Made by a program: the position numbers and the translations under genes
Part shown: in pieces, positions 2,126 to 12,453 of the stretch
How the letters are laid out: the number at the start of each line of letters is the position of its first letter
Position numbering within the stretch: position 1 is the stretch's first letter
DNA from: Humibacillus sp.
GTDB taxonomy: Bacteria > Actinomycetota > Actinomycetes > Actinomycetales > Dermatophilaceae
Assembly (NCBI GenBank): GCA_030452985.1
Contig: JAKDLG010000005.1
Location: 1 to 64,000 of the forward strand
DNA: 64,000 nt
Reading direction: 5' to 3'
Notes under the pieces: model-generated
Told to the model about the DNA's origin: nothing
Databases searched by the model: none
Seen by the model: only the letters and a program-made list of their open reading frames with translations

Positions 2126-3457
2126 CTACCGTGCCAGTGCTGCCCGCACGATCTCGGCGACCTGGTCCTCCTCGATCAGAAAGCCGTCATGGCCGAAGCG
2201 GGAGGTGATCGAGGCCCTCGTCGATCGCGGCAGCGCTTCATGCATCTCGTCGGACAGGCGGGGTGGGTAGAGCCGGTCGGAGTCGACCGACACGATGGTG
2301 CAGTCGGCGCGGACCGTACGGAGAGCGGCCTCCACCCCACCCCGGTCACGCCCGAGGTCATGGGAGTTCATCGCGTCGGTGAGCACGAGGTAGGAGTTCG
2401 CGTCGAAGCGCCGGGCCAGCTTGCCGGCGTGGTGGTCGAGGTAGCTCTCGATGGCGAACCGACCCCGGGTGGAGGCGCCGAGCGGCTCCTCCCCCGTCTG
2501 AGGCGTGCGACCAAAGCGCTCACCCAGCTCGTGCTCGGTGCGATAGGTGATGTGGGCGATTCGACGAGCCAGCCCGAGACCGGCGACCGGCGACTTTCCG
2601 GTGTCGTAGTAGTCGCCACCGCAGAAGTCGGGGTCGGACCGGATCGCGAGCAGCTGTGCCTGGCACCAGGCGATCTGGTCGGCGGTGGTGTGGGCGGTGC
2701 TGGCCAGGACGATGGCGCGCTCGACCCGGTCGGGGTAGGTGGCCGCCCACTCGAGGGACCGCATCCCGCCCATCGACCCACCGATCACGGCCGCGATGCG
2801 GCGCACGCCGATGCGGTCGAGGGCGGCCGCCTCGGCCTGCACCTGGTCCCGAACCGTGAGGTACGGGAAGCGGCTGCCCCAGGCTCGACCGTCGGAGGCC
2901 CTGCTCGAGGGACCGGTGCTGCCCTGACACCCGCCGAGCACGTTGGTCGACACCACGAACCAATGGTCGGGGTCGACAGCACGACCGGGGCCGATCAGGG
3001 AGTTCCACCACCCTGGGGAGGGATGGCCCTCACCAGCTTCACCGGTGACGTGGCTATCGCCGGTGAGGGCGTGCTCGACGAGGATGACGTTGTCGCCGGC
3101 CTCGTTCAGCCGGCCCCATGTCTCGATCGCGATCCGCACATCAGGCAGCGCCGCTCCACGCTCGAGCTGCACGGTGCCGATGTCGACGAACACTCGCCGG
3201 CCGACAGGGTCCCCCTCGCGCCAGGCCCCGTCACGGTCGGCCGAGTGGAGCGGCGCCGACGGGGCGGGGGGCTCAGGCGGCACGGCAGGCTCCGAAGCAT
3301 GGGCGGTCGGGTAGGCAGGGCCGGAACCGTCCACAGGAGTGGGCGATGCGGGCGGACGGGCCGTCAACCCTGCTGTCTGGCCTCCCACCGGCCCCGTCGC
3401 CGATGAGGGTCTCGGCGTGAAACGCCTGGTGCGGGTGTGTCGCCCGGTGATGGTCAT
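2126..3457 (-). CDS. metX: Homoserine O-acetyltransferase
   Basis: 443 aa; FVSTNVLGGCQGSTGPSS, GGSMGGMRSLEWAATYPDRV, alpha/beta-hydrolase MetX signature; long Pro-rich N-terminal extension; RBS GAGGAG. Confidence 0.92.
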   Translation of the reverse strand: MTITGRHTRTRRFTPRPSSATGPVGGQTAGLTARPPASPTPVDGSGPAYPTAHASEPAVPPEPPAPSAPLHSADRDGAWREGDPVGRRVFVDIGTVQLERGAALPDVRIAIETWGRLNEAGDNVILVEHALTGDSHVTGEAGEGHPSPGWWNSLIGPGRAVDPDHWFVVSTNVLGGCQGSTGPSSRASDGRAWGSRFPYLTVRDQVQAEAAALDRIGVRRIAAVIGGSMGGMRSLEWAATYPDRVERAIVLASTAHTTADQIAWCQAQLLAIRSDPDFCGGDYYDTGKSPVAGLGLARRIAHITYRTEHELGERFGRTPQTGEEPLGASTRGRFAIESYLDHHAGKLARRFDANSYLVLTDAMNSHDLGRDRGGVEAALRTVRADCTIVSVDSDRLYPPRLSDEMHEALPRSTRASITSRFGHDGFLIEEDQVAEIVRAALAR

Positions 3458-3484
3458 TGGGTGGCTCCTCGTGCTAGCGCTTGC

Positions 3485-3592
3485 ACACGTCCTGGGAGAC
3501 GTGGCCAGGTCTTCACCCGGGGCACCCCACCGCTTAGGAGGGTTGCCGACCAGCGAGCCGGGGCTTGTCGCTGGTACTCATGACCTTGGTCA
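3485..3592 (-). ncRNA. SAM-IV-type riboswitch upstream of metX
   Basis: Reverse strand: GGTCATGAGTACCAGCGACAAGCCCCGGCTCGCTGGTCGGCAACCCTCCTAAGCGGTGGGGTGCCCCGGGTGAAGACC, closely resembling the actinobacterial SAM-IV core; immediately 5' of metX. Confidence 0.85.
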
Positions 3593-10665: not shown

Positions 10666-11012
10666 GGGGGTGGCCTTTCGTCTCGCATGTGCTCGGGGAG
10701 GGGTCGCTGAAGGGTCCAACGACCGGTCCGAGACCATCATTCCCTTTGCACGGGCAGCGACGAGGCGAAAGGACCGAGACATCACCTCACCGACCGGCCC
10801 GTCAAGGAGGGAGGGTATCGGGCTCACGGTGGCGCGCTAGCCCTGGATGACGTCCGAGTCCCTGCTCCCGCCGTCATGATCGGAAGGCCGTCGAGCGGGT
10901 GTCGAGCGGGTTTTCGCAGTGGAACCCACCGGTCGAACCATCGTTCCTCACCAGGCCGCCCGCGATGTCTCGCGCTGCTCGCAAGACGGGCCGGGTGTGT
11001 TAACTTCCCGGC

Positions 11013-11030
11013 ATGCGTTTTTCAGCCTGA
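11013..11030 (+). CDS. Putative leaderless uORF leader peptide MRFSA*
   Basis: ATGCGTTTTTCAGCCTGA; TAACTT (TANNNT -10) lies exactly 6 nt upstream. Confidence 0.45.
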   Translation: MRFSA

Positions 11031-11035
11031 GCAGC

Positions 11036-11187
11036 GTGCACCCCGGAGAGTCGGTCCACACGGCTAACCGTCCGTGAGGAGTTGGGTGCACCGTCACGAA
11101 TCACGGTCGATCCCGCTGGATCAACCGCGGCTTCGCCACCCCGTAGGCAGCCGCTTCCCGTGACCCTCTCGTGCCGAACCCGGCACG
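11036..11187 (+). promoter_or_regulatory. Candidate attenuator leader (alternative hairpins) upstream of MFS gene
   Basis: GTGCACCC/GGGTGCAC, ACCGT/ACGGT, GGTCGATCC/GGATCAACC and CGTGCCG/CGGCACG arms, with successive arms overlapping. Confidence 0.45.
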
Positions 11188-11205
11188 CTGCTCAAGGAAT
11201 CGCCC

Positions 11206-12453
11206 ATGTCTCTCATCGGCCGTCGGCCCATCCGTCCCGCCGCCGCCTACTGCTGGTTCGAGGGCAGCTGGTCGCTGTTTCACTCCCTCGCCTTCACCCT
11301 CGCTCTGCTTTACCAGGTTCAGGTCGCGGGGCTGACCCCGCTGCAGCTGATCCTCGTCGGCACCGTGATGGAAGCGACCTGCTTCCTGTTCGAGATCCCC
11401 ACCGGAATCGTTGCCGACCTCTACTCCAGACGACTGTCCGCGCTGATCGGCGCGTTTGTCGTTGGCCTGGGCATCCTCATCCAGGGGATCTGGCCATCCT
11501 TCTGGCCGATCGTCCTCGCGCAAATCGTGTGGGGCATCGGGTTCACCTTCATCTCGGGCGCGGTCGACGCGTGGATCACCGACGAGGTCGGCGTCGACGC
11601 CGTCCAGCCCCTCTTCACCCGGTTCCAGCAGCAGCACCTCGCCCTGACCGTCGTCGGCACGATCCTCGCCGGCGCGTTCGGGCAGGTGAACCTGCAGCTG
11701 CCCATCATCGCCGCCGGCGTCGGCTACCTGCTTCTCGGTGCCGCCATGACCGTGGTGATGCCCGAGACAGGCTTCCACCCTGCGCCCAGAGAACAGCGCG
11801 AGACGTGGTCGCACCTGAAACACACCTTCCTGACCGGGGTCGGCGCCGCCCACCGACCAGGAGTGGTGCGGTCCTTCCTCGTCATCGCCCTCCTGACCGG
11901 GATCTCGTCCGAGGTCTTCGACCGCCTCTGGACGGCGAGGGTCCTGGAAGCCTTCACCCTGCCCACGGTCTGGGGTACCGACGACCCGGCAGTCTGGTTC
12001 ACCGCCTTCGCCCTGATCGGATCGGTTGTCGCCCTCGTCGCCAGCCTGCTGGCGAACCGGCTTGCACCGGCGCGAATCAACGCCCTTCATCCCAGCGGGC
12101 TGCTGGCCGCCCTGCTGCTCGTTCAGGTAGCGGGAATCATCGCGTTCGCGCTGTCGGGGTCACTGTGGCCAGCGCTCATCGCGATGTGGGTCAGGGACTC
12201 CGCGAGGGCCATCGCGTACCCGGTCCAAAGTGCGTGGTTGAACCGCAACGTCGAGTCACACACCAGGGCCACGACGCTGTCGCTGACCAGTCAGGCCGAC
12301 GCCATCGGACAGGTAGTGGGCGGGCCGCCCTTGGGCCTGCTCGCGACCCGCACCTCGATCCCCGTCGCGCTGCTGGTGTCTGCCGGCCTGCTGGCACCAG
12401 CAGCCGTCGTCTACGCCCGTCTACGACCACGACGGCGAGCTAGGAACGGCTGA
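11206..12453 (+). CDS. MFS transporter (putative drug efflux)
   Basis: 415 aa, about 12 hydrophobic segments; EIPTGIVADLYSRRLSALIGAF MFS motif A-like; AAGGAA Shine-Dalgarno. Confidence 0.85.
   Translation: MSLIGRRPIRPAAAYCWFEGSWSLFHSLAFTLALLYQVQVAGLTPLQLILVGTVMEATCFLFEIPTGIVADLYSRRLSALIGAFVVGLGILIQGIWPSFWPIVLAQIVWGIGFTFISGAVDAWITDEVGVDAVQPLFTRFQQQHLALTVVGTILAGAFGQVNLQLPIIAAGVGYLLLGAAMTVVMPETGFHPAPREQRETWSHLKHTFLTGVGAAHRPGVVRSFLVIALLTGISSEVFDRLWTARVLEAFTLPTVWGTDDPAVWFTAFALIGSVVALVASLLANRLAPARINALHPSGLLAALLLVQVAGIIAFALSGSLWPALIAMWVRDSARAIAYPVQSAWLNRNVESHTRATTLSLTSQADAIGQVVGGPPLGLLATRTSIPVALLVSAGLLAPAAVVYARLRPRRRARNG

Follow-up and report, generated by a model that had tools for sequence, protein, structure and literature searches.

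The window analysed here, 64,000 nucleotides (nt) at positions 1–64,000 of the forward strand of contig JAKDLG010000005.1 from the soil actinobacterium Humibacillus sp. (GenBank GCA_030452985.1), contains the gene for an exporter of the major facilitator superfamily (MFS) whose leader, in our assessment, probably attenuates translation depending on whether a ribosome occupies a leaderless upstream open reading frame (uORF) of five codons. The evidence comes from comparison of this leader with those of homologous pumps, in which two elements recur: the uORF itself and a long-distance helix, here called P0, between the end of the uORF and the Shine-Dalgarno (SD) sequence of the pump. A first-pass annotation of the same DNA had proposed a ribosome-mediated attenuator with a leaderless uORF; the conservation of P0 and the predicted effect of masking the uORF speak for that kind of attenuator, though not the switch of hairpins by which it was supposed to work.

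The leaderless uORF and its promoter

The -10 element TAACTT (11001–11006) lies 6 nt upstream of the uORF ATG CGT TTT TCA GCC TGA (ATGCGTTTTTCAGCCTGA; 11013–11030), which would encode the peptide MRFSA; all leader features given in this text are on the forward strand. The coordinates that the first-pass annotation assigned to the -10 element, the uORF and the hairpins P1–P4 are all exact in the sequence, in which the SD and the pump ATG at 11206 follow. Within the 5.5-Mb genome, the pattern TANNNT-N6-ATG-N12-TGAG has a single occurrence, at 11001.

Homologues of the pump were sampled from the family of the window (Dermatophilaceae), from Microlunatus and from the Propionibacteriales, and their upstream regions were scanned for leaderless uORFs of whatever length up to 25 codons. 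Forty-two pump leaders, from the window's family and the Propionibacteriales, were found to combine TANNNT, an ATG, exactly five codons and TGA, the spacing between TANNNT and ATG being 6 nt in 11 leaders and 7 nt in 31. Conservation of the leader, on which the first-pass annotation had staked its proposal, is thus evident, and the leaderless uORF that it recognized is common to all these pumps. Thirty of the leaders belong to Propionibacteriales genomes of 7–11 Mb and 12 lie outside that clade. Their length ranges from 104 to 221 nt and they contain 28 different uORF sequences; what is invariant is the ATG, the length of five codons and the TGA. Arginine in second position was considered as a conserved residue of the uORF and ruled out, for 19 of the 42 leaders have Gln instead. 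A conserved stalling peptide is likewise not supported, since 20 different pentapeptides occur at the same fixed length.

Judging from the promoter spacing, transcription appears to begin at the AUG of the uORF. This start is supported by 22 homologues without the unit that were examined: in 16 of them a -10 element precedes the start codon of the pump itself by 6–9 nt, the distance being 6 or 7 nt in 14. The spacing of 6–7 nt serves either the start of the uORF or that of the pump, depending on the homologue, and a promoter of this kind stands directly before the pump start in L090, which lies inside the large clade of Propionibacteriales. In L012–L021, L034, L035 and L090 the pump start codon follows the -10 element by 6–7 nt, and the pump itself seems to be leaderless and devoid of an attenuator. 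The promoters of L066–L098 share a conserved block near ATTCGGAGGCGGACGCGCC, about 40–20 nt before the uORF and 5' of the -10 element, which is perhaps the site of a regulator or sigma factor.

Among 188 genomes of the family the uORF pattern has 22 matches, six of which possess a -10 element and are all leaders of this pump; none of the remaining 16 has a -10 element and none is a pump leader. A stricter pattern gave one match in 351 genomes of Actinomycetes, with no recognizable pump behind it, which is probably due to chance. On the tree of the pumps the uORF trait is clustered yet scattered, so that several gains or losses are needed. The distant pumps L100–L103 (43–45% identical to the Microlunatus pump) apparently have longer uORFs with their own SD, for example MPASHRTPLYGAVATCRIR followed by a stop codon, which suggests that pumps of this family are also controlled by leaders of other types.

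Pairing of the uORF end with the pump SD

P0, which was missing from the elements listed in the first-pass annotation, is the strongest inverted repeat of the leader: a perfect pair of 12 nt with 143 nt between its arms. The 5' arm TGAGCAGCGTGC (11028–11039) consists of the uORF stop and nine further nt, while the 3' arm GCACGCTGCTCA (11183–11194), complementary to it at 12 of 12 positions, extends to the initial A of the pump's SD, AAGGA (11194–11198). Besides P0, the CC at 11026–11027 is able to pair with the GG at 11196–11197. The leader as a whole folds better than its dinucleotide shuffles (z = -4.1), with none of 200 shuffles being as good.

In the relatives P0 was registered on the stop codon of the uORF, as MAFFT misaligned the 3' ends of the first ten leaders. 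It reaches at least 7 base pairs (bp) in 40 of the 42 leaders, as compared with 7.4% of shuffles, and its median length is 11 bp; an example from the large Propionibacteriales clade, GCTCCTGAAAGCG/CGCTTTCGGGAGC, has the entire SD inside the helix. Applied to 29 leaders, RNAalifold recovered the cores of P0 and P1, with little covariation inside that clade. Across the 36 distinct P0s, positions 19, 20 and 21 of the leader (nt 1 being the A of the uORF ATG), which lie outside the reading frame, exhibit 3, 4 and 3 types of Watson-Crick pairs, respectively, the two sides of the helix varying in concert. Within the stop codon the SD side of the helix varies (positions 16 and 18) and TGA remains constant; the stop would therefore be kept for translation as well as for pairing. 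On this evidence, the sequence of the 5' arm is apparently held as both stop codon and anti-SD. Native arms also pair better than arms exchanged between species (P ~0.01), although plain energies are of no use in comparing exchanged arms, since every partner can pair with the conserved core. Conservation, covariation and folding together support the P0 pairing, and an SD hidden by such conserved base pairing is a feature shared with the translation attenuators of resistance genes (erm/cat/toiL type).

The consequences of a ribosome sitting on the uORF were predicted from energy parameters at 37 °C, by masking nt 1–16 as the footprint of a ribosome bound to the AUG. Over the 42 leaders, the median cost of opening the SD is 10.4 kcal/mol, compared with 1.9 kcal/mol when nt 1–16 are masked and 3.6 kcal/mol when the mask extends over nt 1–28. 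Among all 16-nt masks between uORF and SD, the one covering nt 1–16 makes the SD most accessible in 40 of the 42 leaders. Shuffling nt 10–27 drops the opening cost to about 4.4 kcal/mol.

Proposed mechanism and alternative explanations

These observations raise a functional question: How could a reading frame of so variable sequence, and so constant length, control the gene that follows it? We propose that the uORF is translated without an SD, from a transcript starting at its AUG. Whenever it is empty of ribosomes, its last codon or codons, the stop and the following nucleotides would pair at the pump SD, and P0 would close a multibranch loop in which the pump is kept untranslated; such repression we infer from the pairing. 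A ribosome anywhere on the uORF would cover the 5' arm of P0 and thereby free the SD. Already when bound to the AUG it would extend to about nt 16–18, namely the end of the reading frame, which including its stop codon finishes at +18; this would therefore explain why the length of the uORF is fixed at five codons while its peptide is variable. Taken further, the same idea leads to a peptide-independent 'footprint gate', a tentative proposal that we consider somewhat more apt to fail than to hold: the five codons would be kept since 18 nt equal the reach of a ribosome on a 5'-terminal AUG, any ribosome from initiation to termination would hide the anti-SD, and the leader would respond generally to initiation that stalls at the 5' terminus of the transcript, instead of relying on a peptide that arrests with particular drugs. 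Drugs holding ribosomes on the uORF, above all those that stall at the start codon such as tetracyclines, would switch the pump on. Three features taken together would make start-codon stallers the likeliest inducers: the match with the end of the reading frame at +18, a peptide that varies and a pump resembling Tet(40).

The pump (11206–12453, 415 residues) matches Pfam MFS_1, and family searches and alignment show that it is distantly related to Tet(40) and TetA(P), its nearest named families, with 38% and 34% identity, respectively; this upholds its earlier description as an exporter of antibiotic-pump type. It shares with these proteins a common MFS branch across nearly the full length, as well as two invariant Glu in MEATCFLFEIPTG, but its scores stay far under the curated cut-offs of NCBIfam (270.5 bits versus 800 and 252.8 versus 750). 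The genes on both sides, one of the PAC2 family and one for a DEAD/DUF3418 helicase, lie on the opposite strand, and therefore the pump has its own promoter.

Several points weigh against the attenuator gated by uORF occupancy. With an identity of just 34–38% to known tetracycline pumps, a start-codon staller such as tetracycline is a guess as the inducer. In the window, P0 extends no further than the initial A of the SD, and the GG pairs only beyond a bulge. The effect predicted for this leader is modest, with an opening cost of the SD of 4.7 kcal/mol that masking lowers to 1.1 kcal/mol and a P of 0.15 for that cost when nt 10–27 are shuffled. Two further leaders, L076 and L098, show no predicted relief of the SD on masking, and the homologue L081 possesses a leaderless uORF of 12 codons starting with GTG, instead of five codons. 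The nearest relative, Humibacillus sp. DSM 29435 (L002/L025), encodes a pump 84% identical to that of the window, but of its leader only some 50 nt at the 3' end survive, the 5' half having disappeared, and the pump gene now follows the end of another open reading frame. From its sequence, this looks like a natural loss of the attenuator.

Stalling dictated by the peptide is an alternative that we consider unlikely, in which phenicols or oxazolidinones (with penultimate Ala, Ser or Thr) or macrolides (with R-x-R) would arrest ribosomes at codon 5 or at the stop and so open P0. One uORF peptide, MRTRS, does fit R-x-R, the macrolide stalling motif. Moreover, each of the 12 leaders that do not belong to the large Propionibacteriales clade has NCN (Ser, Pro, Thr or Ala) as codon 4, and phenicols and linezolid stall most strongly with penultimate Ala and more weakly with Ser or Thr (PMC8987054). 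As a signature of phenicol stalling, however, NCN held in the first 12 leaders and failed in the 30 from Propionibacteriales, where codon 4 is mostly Arg. Pairing with the SD imposes a constraint of its own on codons 4–5, length alone is fixed among so many peptides, and masking through nt 28 frees the SD no better than masking nt 1–16.

The first-pass annotation had placed at the core of the leader a serial switch, in which P1, P2 and P3 alternate; together with a transcription attenuator, in which a terminator decides readthrough, we judge this quite improbable. P1 (GTGCACCC/GGGTGCAC; 11036–11043/11084–11091) is conserved, and part of its 5' arm coincides with the distal portion of P0; its arms covary among leaders, as CGCACCC/GGGTGCG, GTGCACTC/GAGTGCAC, GGCACTC/GAGTGCC and GGCATCC/GGATGCC. 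Another of the proposed hairpins, P4 (CGTGCCG-AACC-CGGCACG; 11170–11187), an inverted repeat just 5' of the P0 3' arm, is present in the predicted fold and has equivalents of other sequence at the same position in L006 and L007. P3 (GGTCGATCC/GGATCAACC; 11105–11126), with one C-A mismatch, is also predicted and recurs at this place in close relatives as a hairpin that varies. P2 (ACCGT/ACGGT; 11090–11094/11103–11107), by contrast, is a match of 5 bp in the sequence that is absent from the predicted folds, and the serial switch is not supported as the core of the leader, the SD being hidden directly by P0. A transcription attenuator would have a precedent in related ARE genes of Streptomyces, which employ a uORF and a terminator (PMC12421871), but no intrinsic terminator was found in 10800–11300 and the conserved pairing is directly accounted for by masking of the SD. 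Termination by Rho when translation fails may be a further alternative.

Least probable of all, indeed very much so, is a ligand-binding RNA of riboswitch type within P0, for which the uORF would be secondary. The fold between the P0 arms is multibranched, as this explanation would have it, and includes an inner helix that the first-pass annotation had not noted (GTCACG/CGTGAC; 11093–11098/11159–11164), predicted here and recurring in relatives as GTCACGAA/TTCGTGAC and ATCACGAA/TTCGTGAT. Yet this inner part is highly variable, as the range of leader lengths attests, the shortest leader (L027) has just two plain hairpins inside P0, the invariant features are those of the uORF, and no Rfam covariance model matched the leader at its gathering score. 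Elsewhere in the window, the same models identify an ordinary SAM-IV riboswitch (106.8 bits) at 3472–3585 of the reverse strand, directly upstream of a reverse-strand reading frame (2126–3457) that we named metX-like by eye from its translation.

Known systems and biological implications

The closest experimental parallel to the proposed attenuator is, by analogy, toiL, the uORF of topAI-yjhQ in Escherichia coli. There, too, the SD of the gene that follows is sequestered by pairing with a region of the uORF and is released when ribosomes stall on this frame; with tetracycline they stop at the toiL start codon, their downstream edge lying at +16 to +18 (PMC12121999). However, toiL has its own SD and senses several drugs at different codons (PMC12121999), whereas the uORF studied here, found in Actinomycetes before the gene for an exporter, is leaderless and five codons long. 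A tetracycline-resistance gene with a four-codon uORF is mentioned in the same work (Wang et al. 2005, cited in PMC12121999). That system resembles our leader in its very short uORF before a gene for tetracycline resistance, such brevity being consistent with start-codon stalling. It reportedly corresponds to tetQ of CTnDOT from Bacteroides, a different organism, and the likeness noted here is one of description.

The translation attenuators of cat-86 and cmlA also have a stem that hides the SD and overlaps with its 5' arm the end of the leader reading frame. Their leaders have an SD of their own and a drug-specific stalling peptide, whereas the peptide considered here is not conserved and the arms of P0 are far apart. 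The MLV uORF of are5sc in Streptomyces differs in having its own ribosome-binding site and a proposed action on a transcription terminator (PMC12421871). Many leaderless small reading frames are known upstream of mycobacterial genes, and the parts of that report considered here attribute to them neither concealment of an SD nor the sensing of antibiotics for a pump (PMC4633059). The parts of the system are of known kinds. Our searches, which covered open-access papers, turned up no account of such a leaderless uORF before a pump, and this is weak evidence that none exists.

If the mechanism is true, these leaders would represent conserved attenuators that sense drugs by means of a leaderless reading frame. 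Leaderless translation is common in these bacteria, and its initiation would here be linked to the control of resistance. A family of uncharacterized Tet(40)-like pumps would then be predicted to be inducible, and the fixed length of five codons would offer a simple rule for locating further examples. The question whether a stalled leaderless initiation complex regulates genes would become directly testable with one short leader.
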